From NCBI GenBank assembly GCA_902528805.1, contig CABZUC010000002.1:1-64000 (forward strand): a DNA stretch of 64,000 bases, written 5' to 3'. Positions 16,444 through 21,110 of this stretch are shown in pieces. The stretch is from an uncultured Alphaproteobacteria bacterium (GTDB lineage: Bacteria; Pseudomonadota; Alphaproteobacteria; HIMB59). The notes below the pieces were generated by a model, which ran no database searches, was not told the DNA's origin, and saw only the letters and a list, made by a program, of their open reading frames with translations. Both the position numbers and the translations under genes were made by a program. Numbering within the stretch: the first letter of the stretch is position 1; each line of letters starts with the position of its first letter.

Positions 16444-16510
16444 TACAGTAAGAAAGGGATAATAAGCAAAAGACCTGTTAAATCAAATAAAAATGCTTTT
16501 TATATTTTTT

Positions 16511-16600
16511 TGGTGCAGCCGGATCAGGAATCGAACCTGCATCTTCCCTCCCCGCAAGAAATCTCAGTCTGGGACGCTTTTCCATTTAAGCTAAGGCCGC
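16511..16600 (-). tRNA. Atypical tRNA-like element (90 nt including encoded CCA); amino-acid identity uncertain
   Basis: Minus strand GCGGCCTTAGCTTAAATGGAAAAGCG...GCAGGTTCGATTCCTGATCCGGCTGCACCA: GCGGCC/GGCTGC acceptor pairing, 4-bp D-stem GCTT/AAGC with loop GG, T-arm CAGG-TTCGATT-CCTG and CCA. Anticodon/variable region folds poorly; possible anticodon GAG in CTGAGAT. Confidence 0.5.
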
Positions 16601-16626
16601 ATAGGTTAAATTCTGTATGAAAGTCA

Positions 16627-16854
16627 TTATTTTCCATATTTAGGAAGCACCGGGGGCTCGGGTACTTTAGGTATCGTGCACTGCTCTTTGTTGGCGGGTA
16701 ATTTATCAAAAGGGCGTGTTACCCAGATGTGTGAGAAGATAATATCGCCATTTTCATTTTGAAAGCATTTCTTACCAAAATGAAGCTGACTGTGGTTTTG
16801 CTCATCAGCGACATACAAAAATAAGACTGCTACGAGGAAATGTAAAAAAGTCAT
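16627..16854 (-). CDS. Small exported protein, unknown
   Basis: 75 aa, hydrophobic N-terminus MTFLHFLVAVLFLYVADE, two Cys, Pro-rich C-terminus; overlaps the upstream gene by 4 nt. Confidence 0.5.
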   Translation of the reverse strand: MTFLHFLVAVLFLYVADEQNHSQLHFGKKCFQNENGDIIFSHIWVTRPFDKLPANKEQCTIPKVPEPPVLPKYGK

Positions 16855-17618
16855 GATTTTAGTCCTTTCTGGGAATAATTGAGATTGGCCATAATGGGAT
16901 CAGGTATTTTTTTGCAGTGCTTGTGCGCTCTGTCCATGGCCTCTTCTATTTGTGGCATGGCCCACTGAATTGTTGGTAAGTCTATAAATGTTCTTAAGGC
17001 AACTGACTCCTCTACGGGAACATCGGTGACTGTTAAACGCGAGCGTTTATGAAAAGTATAATATTCTTTGATGGTTTCATGACCATAGGACCCCATCCCT
17101 ATTAAAATCATGTGTCCGTTTTTGTAGGGGTATATTTCCATAACCATCCCCGTCGTGGTATGGCCGTTTTCCTGGAGCTCAATTTCTTGATCGATTAATT
17201 TTGTGAGATCAGGGTGAGTTGAAAGTGTAAATAATTCAAAAAATTGGAGGACACGGTCACAATTATTTTTAGTCATCACAAAGATAATATTTTCTGAGTC
17301 CTCGATATCTCCACTGCGTTCGATTGCGATCATTTCCTCTTCCAGCAATTGAATATTCCAGCCATGAAATTTTTCCAAGGTCATCGCTGAAGTTGTGGAA
17401 ATAAAAAAAGAAGAGGTAAATATTAATATTAAATATTTTCCTCTTTGTACTACGGCGTATTTGGAGGATGAAACAAGCCGTAGCACAGAAAGGAACCATG
17501 AAAAAACCACCTCAATACTTCCTCTCCATTTTTTGTGTTTGTCATATAAACCCTTGGTAGGAAATGACTTAGAGAAGGAGTAACTAGAAAATAGAAAAGA
17601 AGAGAGAGGTCTTTGCAC
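16851..17618 (-). CDS. Exported protein of unknown function (true start probably downstream of 17618)
   Basis: Internal signal-peptide-like KYLILIFTSSFFISTTSA precedes a globular region (MTLEKFHGWNIQLLEEEM...); lies downstream of the channel gene. Confidence 0.55.
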   Translation of the reverse strand: MQRPLSSFLFSSYSFSKSFPTKGLYDKHKKWRGSIEVVFSWFLSVLRLVSSSKYAVVQRGKYLILIFTSSFFISTTSAMTLEKFHGWNIQLLEEEMIAIERSGDIEDSENIIFVMTKNNCDRVLQFFELFTLSTHPDLTKLIDQEIELQENGHTTTGMVMEIYPYKNGHMILIGMGSYGHETIKEYYTFHKRSRLTVTDVPVEESVALRTFIDLPTIQWAMPQIEEAMDRAHKHCKKIPDPIMANLNYSQKGLKS

Positions 17619-17673
17619 TGAAGACCAAAGTATTGAATTTTAGAGATAAAGATTGGGAAGAAATTAATTAATT

Positions 17674-19059
17674 TTAGACAGAAATACTTGTCCCAGGCAT
17701 GTTCCAATTATTTGTTATCCCCCACCATAAAAGAGCCATGAGAAGATGATAGGTTATTGGAACAAACCATCGAAGTTTCCTATCAATTGTATTGTAGAGA
17801 CCAGTTTGCTGATCTCGATGATAATCCCAATAACTCCATATGGTAATCATGGTAGATAAGCCAGCGAACAGGTATGAGAGCAAAATCCAAGCATCTAAAA
17901 CAGTGATATAGTTTAATTTTGGAACATCGTCACCAAACACAAAGTTATAGGCAACAAGTGTTAACAAGCTTCCCATTGAAACTGCTAGCTTTGACTCGAG
18001 TTCTCTTGCTCGAATGTAAAAGACACTAAAGGATAAATAGACCAGAAAGATTACTGGGAGAATAATCTTCAAGACGTAGTAAAAAGATTTACGGTTGAGA
18101 TCAAAACTGTAATCCAGTGTCTGGAGTACTCCTTGCCCGTAAAGTTGAGTATCGCAACAGTTAAGACGATGTTCATTAATTTTCCATTCATACAAAATAT
18201 CATTGCCTTGGCTGATAGTAATCTCTGGGTTGTAACGTGGGGGGGCGCTTAGATCAATATCCTGAAATATAAAATCTGCAGATGTAGAAATATCATCAAA
18301 AGGGAATTTTCTAAAGTCTGAGGAATTAGTTACCTGATAATTAATTTGCTGCTTTAGGATAAAATTAAATGGAACAGATTGATCATTTGTAATCAGTAAA
18401 CTTTTAAAGGTTACATCGTTTATAAAAGATCCTACTTGTGTCGTTTCAAATGTGGGATACCAAATTTTTTGTAAAATGTTTTCAAGTTCGGCTGACTTTC
18501 TATAAATACATTTAATGGGTGATTTATCTAAATCTGTTAAATTAAAGAAATTATGTATTAAGTCTTCATTTTGCCATTGCAAATAAACTTCTAAATTTAG
18601 ATTGGACTTGCTGCTTTGCTGGGTAACCTCAAAATCATTTAAGATTATATTTGCTTCAACTATGGGGTGGCCTAAGTAAGGAATGCGTTTCAGGTCGATT
18701 ATCTCTTCCTCACCGTCTTGGTGTTGAACGGTTAATGTGAGGTCTCTCATTGCTGAAGTCTCTAATAAGTTAGACAAGAAGAGATGAGCATCGCTATCAT
18801 CAGAAGCAACTGGTTTTTGATCAACCGCCAAAATACGGTCTCCGACCTCAAGAGGGGTAATAAAAGCATAGGAACCGAAGCGTTTTTTGTTGATAATTGG
18901 TTGATTTTGCTCAAGAACCACGCCACTGTCGTTATAGGCTAACCGGATATTAGATGTTTCTCTGAAGTCTTTTTTTAAGAGTCGCTCACAAATCTCTGCT
19001 CCCCAACTCACGCTGGAGAAGAAAACCCAGACACCTACAAAAATCCCCCTTAGTAACAA
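17674..19059 (-). CDS. Prokaryotic pentameric ligand-gated ion channel (Cys-loop receptor superfamily) homologue with N-terminal PDZ-like domain
   Basis: Signal peptide; PDZ-like segment GDRILAVDQKPV...LTLTVQHQDGEEEIIDLKR; extracellular domain VEANIILNDFEV...NLEVYLQWQNEDL, IWYPTFETTQ, FRKFPFDDISTSADF; four TM helices from KSFYYVLKIILPVIFLVYLS through ESKLAVSMGSLLTLVAYNFVFGDDVPKLNYITVLDAWILLSYLF to the M4 near the C-terminus. Confidence 0.85.
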   Translation of the reverse strand: MLLRGIFVGVWVFFSSVSWGAEICERLLKKDFRETSNIRLAYNDSGVVLEQNQPIINKKRFGSYAFITPLEVGDRILAVDQKPVASDDSDAHLFLSNLLETSAMRDLTLTVQHQDGEEEIIDLKRIPYLGHPIVEANIILNDFEVTQQSSKSNLNLEVYLQWQNEDLIHNFFNLTDLDKSPIKCIYRKSAELENILQKIWYPTFETTQVGSFINDVTFKSLLITNDQSVPFNFILKQQINYQVTNSSDFRKFPFDDISTSADFIFQDIDLSAPPRYNPEITISQGNDILYEWKINEHRLNCCDTQLYGQGVLQTLDYSFDLNRKSFYYVLKIILPVIFLVYLSFSVFYIRARELESKLAVSMGSLLTLVAYNFVFGDDVPKLNYITVLDAWILLSYLFAGLSTMITIWSYWDYHRDQQTGLYNTIDRKLRWFVPITYHLLMALLWWGITNNWNMPGTSISV

Positions 19060-19060
19060 G

Positions 19061-19525
19061 CTAAAGTGATTTTAGCACACTCTTAATTTTACTCAACTGA
19101 TCATCCAATTTTTGGATGTCTTGATAGATTTTCTCTTTTTCATGAGGAACTATTTTTGCTCCTCCAGAGCTCTTCTCATCCATCGACTCACGCACCGCGT
19201 CCATTAAATCTCCCAGCCTTCCCCCGATCGCCAATATCTCTGATTGCACCTCGCTTTCACTTGCAGGTTTTTCAGGTTGCGCTGTTGCCAGGTAATCTTT
19301 CAGAAAATTACTAAAAGGAGTTTTTTGATAAATTTTTTGCATGGCATGCTCTAAAAGAATGACAGTTCTAAATTGGATGTTCCTTTCATGATCATCAGGA
19401 TCGGCACACTTGTAGATATATGATTTGGACTTACCGGTAATCTCTTGGATGTCTTGATCGCTGAGATTTTTTAGGACATCTTTAAGGGTGTGTTCGATGG
19501 TGATAATTTCTTTGGTTTTAGACAT
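19061..19525 (-). CDS. HTH-like DNA-binding protein, probable regulator
   Basis: HTH-like LSDQDIQEITGKSKSYIYKCADPDDHERNIQFRTVILLEHAM plus coiled-coil-like C-terminus; stop is next to the channel start. Confidence 0.5.
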   Translation of the reverse strand: MSKTKEIITIEHTLKDVLKNLSDQDIQEITGKSKSYIYKCADPDDHERNIQFRTVILLEHAMQKIYQKTPFSNFLKDYLATAQPEKPASESEVQSEILAIGGRLGDLMDAVRESMDEKSSGGAKIVPHEKEKIYQDIQKLDDQLSKIKSVLKSL

Positions 19526-19557
19526 ACCCCACTATAGCAATTTATGATAAGGGGGTA
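19525..19557. promoter_or_regulatory. Possible operator: spaced inverted repeat TACCCC-N21-GGGGTA
   Basis: TACCCC at 19525-19530 and GGGGTA at 19552-19557 in the 104-bp divergent intergenic region, abutting the 19525 start codon. Confidence 0.3.
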
Positions 19558-19629
19558 ATCAATAATCTATGTCCAAAAGTAAAAAAGCTTTAGACTATTT
19601 TAAAAAATGTTTTTTCTCATTATAGGTGT

Positions 19630-19944
19630 ATGAAGTCTAATTATATTACCCCTACTTTAACTGGAGGATCCTCCTCCGATAAAAAATTTGAACCCCAATC
19701 CCTAAGCAATATCGAAGAGTATTTGCGCTGCCTTGCTCATATCAGGGTTGAGAATAATATTTCAGTTGAGGATGTAATGCAGCATTTGAATTACTCTCGT
19801 AGCACCCTTGATGCTCTTGAAAATGGTGATTTGGAATTTATCCAGTATCCTCTGAACTACTTCTTTACCAGGCAGTATGCCTCTTATTTAAATGTGCCCT
19901 TTCCTCAGCAATTCCTAATGAGCCATTTCAAGCCAGGAGATTAG
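19630..19944 (+). CDS. Small HTH protein (HTH_25/RodZ-N-like)
   Basis: IEEYLRCLAHIRVENNISVEDVMQHLNYSRSTLDALENGDLEFIQYPLNYFFTRQYASYLNVP. Confidence 0.7.
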   Translation: MKSNYITPTLTGGSSSDKKFEPQSLSNIEEYLRCLAHIRVENNISVEDVMQHLNYSRSTLDALENGDLEFIQYPLNYFFTRQYASYLNVPFPQQFLMSHFKPGD

Positions 19945-19949
19945 AAGTA

Positions 19950-20477
19950 ATGAGGGTTCTATTATTATTATTTATCAGTACTTTTTTAACTAATTGTACG
20001 TTGAAGGCTGAGAGTAACTCCATTCACCATGAGTTTGATAACTGGATACATATGGAGGCCAAGGAAGACAACCTCGATTTGGTCTTTAGCTTAGAGAACA
20101 GTGAACGAATGATTATTTTTATCGTCGATCCCAACTTAAGTTGTGATGCTCGGTTAGTTTACACTAATCGTGAATTTGAGCCCCAGGATTTTGACATCAT
20201 GAGTGGTGAGACTTTCGATTGGAATCTCTCAGGGCAGACATACGACGGCAAAGATGCCAGTCGATTAAATGCAGACGGATATGTTCGGTGGGAGCTGATG
20301 AGTTTTTACAAACATCACTTCTCCAAGCTTGAAGATTTGTTATCTAAAAGAGGGCAGATTTCATTTTCAATCAACGACCCTCTCAATCGATTTGAAAAAC
20401 AAGAAATACAAATGAAAGCAAATGGGCTTAGTTCTGCTCTTGTCAGTGCCCTTGATACTTGCCAGGGGTGGACATGA
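19950..20477 (+). CDS. Exported protein, unknown (lipoprotein-like or IalB-like)
   Basis: Signal peptide MRVLLLLFISTFLTNC; C-terminal MKANGLSSALVSALDTCQGWT. Confidence 0.6.
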   Translation: MRVLLLLFISTFLTNCTLKAESNSIHHEFDNWIHMEAKEDNLDLVFSLENSERMIIFIVDPNLSCDARLVYTNREFEPQDFDIMSGETFDWNLSGQTYDGKDASRLNADGYVRWELMSFYKHHFSKLEDLLSKRGQISFSINDPLNRFEKQEIQMKANGLSSALVSALDTCQGWT

Positions 20478-20923
20478 TAAAAAAATTATTATGTTTATTC
20501 TTATTCATGAGTTGGTCCTTACCTATAAAGGCAGAAAATAAGCCTGCAGCAATTTTTGTGCTTGGTAGTTTAGATAATGACTTGAAGCAATTATTTAAAG
20601 AAACGATTGATGACCAGATACACAGTTATGCTCAAACAATCAGTGTAGGATCACAATCAAATATTTATGTCTTTCCCTATCGCAGTCAAGATCAGTGGCA
20701 AGTGGTAAGTCTACATGTAGAGGGCAATGAAAAGCATATAGACCTTCTTGGTCTTACTTTTGAGGGTCCCCCACTTCGTTCTTTAGATGAAATCCGCCAG
20801 CTGGTAGGTCTAGATGGCTCCCTTAAATATATCGGTTGGAGTAGCTATGATGAGCTCCCTCCAGAAAAGGTTTTTATTGCTTCCAAAATTATCGCTCAAG
20901 ATTATCTATACTTGTATTTTTAA
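20459..20923 (+). CDS. Exported protein, unknown
   Basis: Signal peptide MIKKLLCLFLFMSWSLPIKAE; overlaps the previous gene by 19 nt. Confidence 0.6.
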   Translation: MPGVDMIKKLLCLFLFMSWSLPIKAENKPAAIFVLGSLDNDLKQLFKETIDDQIHSYAQTISVGSQSNIYVFPYRSQDQWQVVSLHVEGNEKHIDLLGLTFEGPPLRSLDEIRQLVGLDGSLKYIGWSSYDELPPEKVFIASKIIAQDYLYLYF

Positions 20924-20933
20924 CAAATCCTCA

Positions 20934-21110
20934 GTGAGCGTTTTGCTCTTTGTTTGCTTGATGTCTTTTCAAAGTGGTTTTGTCCCTTTAGTGGTCACAG
21001 TGGGTGTCTTATTGTATAAGTGTGTGATCTTATTTTTTTACTTAACCTACAGTTATCAAAAATCATCAACTCCATCGATAGCTGAAACCACCATTAATGA
21101 CTCAATATAG
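20934..21110 (+). CDS. Possible small hydrophobic protein (GTG start, 58 aa)
   Basis: VSVLLFVCLMSFQSGFVPLVVTVGVLLYKCVILFFYLTYSY...; 3' part of ORF 20814-21110. Antisense overlap with 21056-21268. Confidence 0.25.
   Translation: MSVLLFVCLMSFQSGFVPLVVTVGVLLYKCVILFFYLTYSYQKSSTPSIAETTINDSI

Follow-up and report, generated by a model that had tools for sequence, protein, structure and literature searches.

Does a bacterial ligand-gated ion channel carry a PDZ domain on its periplasmic side, and if so, what would such a channel sense? The question is raised by one gene of the window (the whole stretch of 64,000 nucleotides of DNA that was analysed, taken from an assembly of 910 kb that is 56%-complete). 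A first-pass annotation had described this gene, on its own, as a homologue of the bacterial pentameric ligand-gated ion channels (pLGICs) with an N-terminal, periplasmic PDZ-like module. The open reading frame held, its coordinates being exact, with the strand (minus) now supplied; and every motif quoted for it is found in the translation (GDRILAVDQKPV at residues 73-84, LTLTVQHQDGEEEIIDL at 107-123, IWYP at 199-202, FPFD at 252-255, ARELESK at 351-357, and LAVSMGSLLTLVAYNFVF at 358-375). Table 1 gives the anatomy of the gene and its surroundings.

Table 1. Features of the channel gene and of the cassette around it (positions are those of the window)
Feature	Position	Strand	Basis or remark
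PDZ-pLGIC gene, 461 aa	17674..19059	-	TTG start, 1 nt past stop of upstream gene
Signal peptide, residues 1-20	19000..19059	-	judged by eye from a hydrophobic stretch followed by SWG-AE
Conserved N-terminal helix with Cys24, residues 21-43	18931..18999	-	retained in PDZ-less relatives
PDZ domain, residues ~44-127, G46-V-V-L loop	18679..18930	-	profiles, fold comparison
Ligand-binding beta-sandwich, residues 128-321; IWYP, KFPFD, Cys184	18097..18678	-	homology alignments
Four-helix transmembrane domain, residues 322-449	17713..18096	-	Pfam, phmmer, model
Pore helix M2, residues ~354-378; E355 -2', L366 9'	17926..18000	-	alignment
Post-M4 periplasmic tail ending I-S-V-COOH	17677..17712	-	
HTH154, regulator resembling CII/control proteins (weak matches); upstream gene, tightly coupled	19061..19525	-	
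w255, conserved downstream gene, no known domain	16851..17618	-	
HTH104, helix-turn-helix (HTH_25) regulator, divergent	19630..19944	+	
w175, predicted secreted protein	19950..20477	+	
w154b, predicted to be secreted, start probably ATG 20474, C-terminus YLYLYF	20459..20923	+	
tRNA-like element of ~90 nt ending CCA, cassette edge	16511..16600	-	
Extent of presence/absence insertion	~16472..21083	no strand	versus empty sites, three relatives

The channel gene and its pLGIC core

The spacing of the TTG start to the upstream stop is retained in 8 of the 9 A-type relatives (A-type being our label for the window's channel and its like) that were compared at the start, the one exception having a nearby ATG instead. 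Of 52 genomes of the same genus, about 26 contain a full-length homologue (54-98% identity), and every folded domain has a dN/dS well below 1 (for close pairs, 0.04-0.33 in the PDZ domain and 0.01-0.13 in the transmembrane domain, TMD); this conservation and selection rule out a chance open reading frame. Counting both full copies and contig-edge pieces, about half of the same-genus genomes have the A-type channel; it was not found in G001 (a single contig, 99%-complete), and the viral contigs searched contained no relative of the channel. Close relatives of the window include SAG AG-916-M14 (L023; 97% identical), the reference of genomospecies HIMB59-1.A (PMC10734472); this puts the host in the order HIMB59 (AEGEAN-169, formerly 'SAR11 clade V'). 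The copy at L030 / L014 (G035) is broken by stops and frame changes, both in HTH154 and in the channel gene's 5' end; it may be a decaying gene or an assembly error.

That the protein is a pLGIC homologue is upheld by sequence profiles over its C-terminal two thirds. Pfam Neur_chan_memb matches above its cut-off (9.3e-7); phmmer comparison gives E 3e-14 to GLIC and 5e-14 to DeCLIC (overall about 1e-13 to 3e-14 for GLIC, DeCLIC and GABA-A); and the NCBIfam LGIC model matches at 5.6e-17, under that model's own cut-off. Residues 199-446 align to GLIC, and residues 128-399 to the glycine receptor. The window channel resembles GLIC in having a ligand-binding domain (LBD) and four-TM core, a Pro-loop (KFPFD) without the Cys-loop cysteines, a glutamate at M2 -2' and a hydrophobic 9' ring, but differs from it in having A2' and G6', where GLIC is polar. 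TM helices are placed at residues 324-348, 354-378, 387-416, and 425-449 by a low-confidence AlphaFold model, and the tail that follows them keeps its Phi-x-V pattern in all but the alleles whose TMD is replaced.

When M2 is aligned to GLIC without gaps, E355 falls at -2', L366 at 9', and A370 at 13'. Invariant across all five subfamilies aligned, E355 takes the place of GLIC E222; this mildly supports the weak hint of cation selectivity that had been drawn from the acidic residues before M2. The channel is thus likely to be cation-selective, as suggested by E355; this is inferred from sequence alone, selectivity being unmeasured. Pentameric assembly and ion conduction are inferences as well.

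The PDZ domain and the N-terminal helix

The PDZ-like module is upheld by sequence profiles, and more weakly by fold comparison. Its span, first given as residues 25-125, is corrected to about 44-127, behind a Cys/helix segment (residues 21-43), so that the domain is an insertion after the N-terminal helix and not a simple N-terminal fusion. Pfam PDZ models match residues 50-120 repeatedly, all of them sub-threshold: the best E is 0.0045 in the window channel and 1.8e-4 in a relative, and the top score is 21.6 bits versus 27 (this cut-off is a detection threshold, not a biological feature). When a profile of the HIMB59 channels was run against 395 alphaproteobacterial genomes, seven unrelated ORFs matched it solely through the N-terminal columns, and all seven are PDZ-bearing proteases of the DegP, CtpA or RseP type. 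Comparison by hhalign of the A-type domain with the PDZ domains of DegP, CtpA, and RseP gave 96.4% and E 1.1e-9, versus a best E of 2e-3 among 30 column-shuffled controls; by this profile-profile comparison the domain is homologous to those of DegP/HtrA, CtpA, and RseP, which serve proteases.

The AlphaFold model of the N-terminal domain reaches pLDDT 70-87 only over residues ~70-127, which include a strand-helix-strand-strand core, and this core recurs in the full-length model, poor as that is. Of the ~20 best Foldseek matches to the domain model, nearly all are PDZ-bearing (CtpA, CPAF, HtrA, RseP, and DegQ among them), at E values of 0.04-0.8 for the top matches, and none reaches E 0.001. 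Both models are low overall (mean pLDDT 46 and 59) because the alignments are shallow, and the global fold of the whole protein was not used since its model is poor. As to the outcome that the first-pass annotation had named as refuting it, a predicted structure without a PDZ fold, the core strands and helix are modelled and Foldseek matches PDZ proteins, none significantly. G46, a GD pair, and several core positions are nearly or fully invariant among A-type channels. We conclude that residues ~44-127 are a divergent PDZ domain, a conclusion that rests on profile evidence plus weak structural support; the architecture is counted among what is shown here, with its reading as PDZ-pLGIC very probable. 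The PDZ domain diverges fastest within the protein, having only ~50% nucleotide identity between allele classes, and its faster evolution relative to the LBD could reflect relaxed constraint between clades.

Besides the A-type, we distinguish paralogue types B (474-aa frame), C (410), D (391), and E (514); in the tree A groups with C, and D with E, and the channels of the sister family and of f10 fall outside. The C- and D-type sisters have a signal peptide and a short Cys24 segment, and then the LBD directly, without a PDZ domain. Since they retain the Cys24 segment, the PDZ domain is placed as an insertion between the N-terminal helix and the LBD, and their lack of it indicates that it is not needed for a pLGIC of this clade. 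In a PDZ profile test, the B-type, L123, L126, and L170 channels beat 30 of 30 shuffles, with weak E values (2e-4 to 2e-2); the scores of the E-type and L125 N-termini are not separable from shuffles. If these weak matches are indeed PDZ domains, the domain would be ancestral in the clade and lost in C and D, which is possible, the polarity being tentative. The idea that bacterial pLGICs in general carry a PDZ domain was rejected: the other Pseudomonadota pLGICs sampled do not align to the PDZ columns of the channel profile, and the long ones resemble, by eye, PBP-I-type fusions.

Cys24 (18988-18990) and Cys184 (18508-18510) are invariant in all subfamilies and have counterparts in sister families; L130, L131, and L134 have both, and L129, L135, and L136 have neither. 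Their joint presence or absence across the alphaproteobacterial and other pLGICs sampled suggests that a disulfide, separate from that of the classical Cys-loop, ties the N-terminal helix to the LBD; we regard this as likely, although it is inferred from reading the sequences.

The accessory cassette, its alleles and its relatives

The single-gene view of the locus is refined, as the channel gene is one part of an accessory cassette of six genes: w154b, w175, and HTH104 on one strand, and HTH154, the channel gene, and w255 on the other. This order is common to all 24 A-type loci examined, as far as their contigs extend, and the whole block is missing in three relatives, where FadJ and w189 lie ~360 bp apart. 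An HTH154 and a pLGIC profile match are both present in 34 of 150 genomes of the order (2 others have only the pLGIC, and 4 only HTH154; Fisher p 8e-27). This p value is inflated: with neighbouring genes and related genomes, the independent events are far fewer. HTH154 is a near-obligate partner of the pLGIC in the order; against PADLOC it gives a weak control-protein match (2.9e-4). The cassette and the conservation and linkage of the channel's partners are shown; functional linkage of the genes at the level of the cassette is likely.

Between w255 and the island border, and within the segment that is missing from the empty sites, lies a tRNA-like element with an acceptor stem, a GTTCGA T-arm, a CCA end, and an odd anticodon region. 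Homologues of the element are found downstream of the channel in essentially all A-type loci that extend that far; ARAGORN calls it a tRNA in L054 and L057 only, and no tRNA gene or known RNA was called in the window's cassette.

Some relatives carry further genes nearby. Downstream of the A-type cassette in L147, L157, and L158 there is a block with a caspase (C14), a TPR-CHAT protein, and an ECF sigma factor, and also a trypsin-like protease, DUF2167, and PrsW; past this block, L157 has a cytosine methylase and L147 an AAA helicase-like protein. HTH154 homologues of the sister family are found in L166, L167, L168, and L169, with no pLGIC within the stretch read, and some of them are (by eye) near an integrase-like, helicase-like or methylase-like gene.

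The channel alleles are mosaic, as shown by piecewise nucleotide identity, with flanking genes ~95% identical. For example, L043 and L026 share 96% identity in HTH154 and 91% in the signal-peptide/helix part, 53% in the PDZ domain, 64-67% in the LBD, 65-77% in the TMD, and 94% in w255; L032 and L026 share 84-97% identity through the LBD, then 73% in M1, 63% in M2-M3, and 45% in M4, and are back to 96% in w255. Since the drops are confined to parts of the channel, pieces of the channel gene have been replaced and the flanks left in place. In L031, L032, and L033 the half from M1 to the C-terminus is replaced, with the PDZ domain, LBD, and flanking genes conserved. Within allele classes there is purifying selection.

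The PDZ domain had been proposed to sense peptide termini or to recruit partners; there are no functional data on this, and the candidate ligand, w154b, comes from comparative data. This protein has an apparent signal peptide and ends in ...ASKIIAQDYLYLYF (YLYLYF), and F(0) and L(-2) are shared by its relatives at 49-54% identity, whose ends read ...YLFLHF or ...YFFLHF; the Phi-x-F terminus is retained even at 49% overall identity. A C-terminus with F(0) and L(-2) is a class-II-like PDZ ligand pattern. w154b is present in all 24 PDZ-bearing A-type loci, and was not found in any of three PDZ-less C-type cassettes (one of them, L171, is counted as C-type through HTH154 and HTH104, its channel being truncated by the contig end). 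The association is only suggestive because the three C-type loci are one clade, and the loss of w154b there could be unrelated to that of the PDZ domain. The w154b tail is thus a predicted PDZ ligand, inferred without binding data. Binding of the PDZ domain to the channel's own I-x-V tail was considered and rejected: three alleles keep the PDZ domain without this tail (L031-L033 keep the PDZ domain and w154b, yet differ in TMD and C-terminus), and the tails of some PDZ-bearing sisters are unrelated.

In six sister lineages (B, D, E, two sister-family types, and one other-family type) the channel is linked to a gene for PrsW, a glutamic intramembrane protease. The gap is 25 bp in B, 0 in D, -4 in E, -8 in the L123-type, and -4 in the f10 L170-type, L170 belonging to another alphaproteobacterial family, and PrsW is 0.9 kb away from the L126-type channel (PrsW-adjoining sister pLGICs are, for example, at L042:6895-8295, L046:2205-3371, L048:1364-2899, L123:2792-4360, and L170:7035-8513). 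These neighbours match PF13367 at 1e-25 to 1e-34 with EExxK retained, and 8 of the 20 PrsW genes of the order adjoin a pLGIC. In the sample of other Pseudomonadota pLGICs, whose available flanks are short, no neighbouring PrsW was found. No PrsW adjoins an A-type or C-type channel, so that PrsW as an obligate partner is rejected for these types; none was found near the window's cassette, or anywhere in its 56%-complete assembly. In A-type contigs with PrsW but without a B-type channel, PrsW lies 11-13 kb off, in a separate block.

Possible function, alternatives and meaning

The explanation we prefer, by a modest margin and with function inferred, is a peptide-modulated cation channel. As a member of the pLGIC superfamily, the protein would form a homopentameric channel in the inner membrane that is probably selective for cations. 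Its PDZ domains would form a periplasmic crown (inferred) that binds C-terminal peptides; the leading candidate is the conserved ...YLYLYF-COOH tail of w154b, the secreted protein encoded alongside. PDZ occupancy would allosterically modulate gating of the LBD and pore, the cassette regulators HTH154 and HTH104 would control expression, and in related systems the channel would be paired with the intramembrane protease PrsW. Peptide gating is inferred throughout, and its specific form, gating by the w154b tail docking on the PDZ domain, we hold to be rather more doubtful than probable.

It is possible instead that the PDZ domain serves in scaffolding or assembly, localising the channel by capture of w154b, w255 or an envelope protein as partner, with no part in gating. 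In general PDZ domains mediate protein interactions, and the PDZ-less C-type channels keep HTH154, HTH104, and w255, so the channel core evidently works without the domain. However, its insertion beside the N-terminal helix of the LBD suits allostery; direct evidence is lacking either way.

A regulated-proteolysis or envelope-stress circuit is also possible: PrsW, in sister systems, would cleave the channel or a partner, flux or cleavage would signal, and the PDZ domain would present the substrate, as in RseP/DegS. For it speak the PrsW genes found at most 0.9 kb from the channel gene, in part abutting or overlapping it, in six sister lineages, the ECF sigma factor in one PrsW block near A-type channels, and the fact that bacterial PDZ domains elsewhere are mostly in proteases (PMC6411480); against it, A- and C-type channels have no adjoining PrsW, and the same-contig A-type cases are 11-13 kb apart.

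A conflict or phage-defence module, with the channel as a membrane-depolarising effector and a diversifying periplasmic sensor, seems unlikely. Presence or absence at one site with clean empty sites, mosaic alleles, a CII/control-protein-like regulator, and caspase, CHAT, methylase, and helicase cargo nearby in relatives would fit it; but the channel and PrsW match none of the PADLOC families, no recognised defence gene lies within the window's own cassette, selection is purifying, and environmental sensing would explain the secreted partners and the LBD just as well. That the N-terminal segment is a mere PDZ-derived spacer with ligand binding lost would agree with the sub-threshold Pfam scores and with its being the fastest-diverging part, but is improbable given purifying selection within allele classes and the near-invariance of G46, the GD pair, and several core positions in the A-type.

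To return to the peptide-modulated channel, the closest known systems differ from it in the accessory domain. GLIC has no extra N-terminal domain. DeCLIC (from Desulfofustis) is likewise a bacterial pLGIC with an accessory periplasmic domain and a similar core, but its domain consists of two calcium-binding jelly-roll lobes (PMC12664993), whereas the window channel has a single PDZ domain, inserted after the N-terminal helix. The other published accessory domains are PBP-I, Cache, and MCP-N (PMC549065), in fusions that share the order of signal peptide, accessory sensory domain, LBD, and four TM helices; PDZ is not mentioned once in that paper, and the catalogue of bacterial PDZ proteins (PMC6411480) does not mention ion channels. 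Nothing tying PDZ or PrsW to pLGICs was found in the open-licence literature searched, subscription papers being outside its scope, and within that literature a PDZ domain on a pLGIC appears to be new. A bolder reading, which we think unlikely as a joint claim, would make this a new class of bacterial signalling system: in it, the C-terminus of a secreted protein from the same cassette would gate a PDZ-bearing channel of the neurotransmitter-receptor type, with PrsW as partner in other lineages and modular alleles swapped on an island of abundant ocean bacteria.

If this bolder reading is true, the channel would be a peptide-gated pLGIC, and the system would give the first tie known to us between pLGICs and regulated intramembrane proteolysis. 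GLIC and ELIC serve as structural models for the nicotinic and GABA receptors, and their natural ligands and bacterial roles are largely unknown; with a peptide-binding type of domain and a co-encoded candidate ligand, what such a channel senses becomes directly testable. The recurrent linkage to PrsW suggests an unsuspected tie between these channels and proteolysis in the membrane. The host lineage is a common and abundant ocean bacterium with a streamlined genome, in which the retention and swapping of such a cassette are unexpected.
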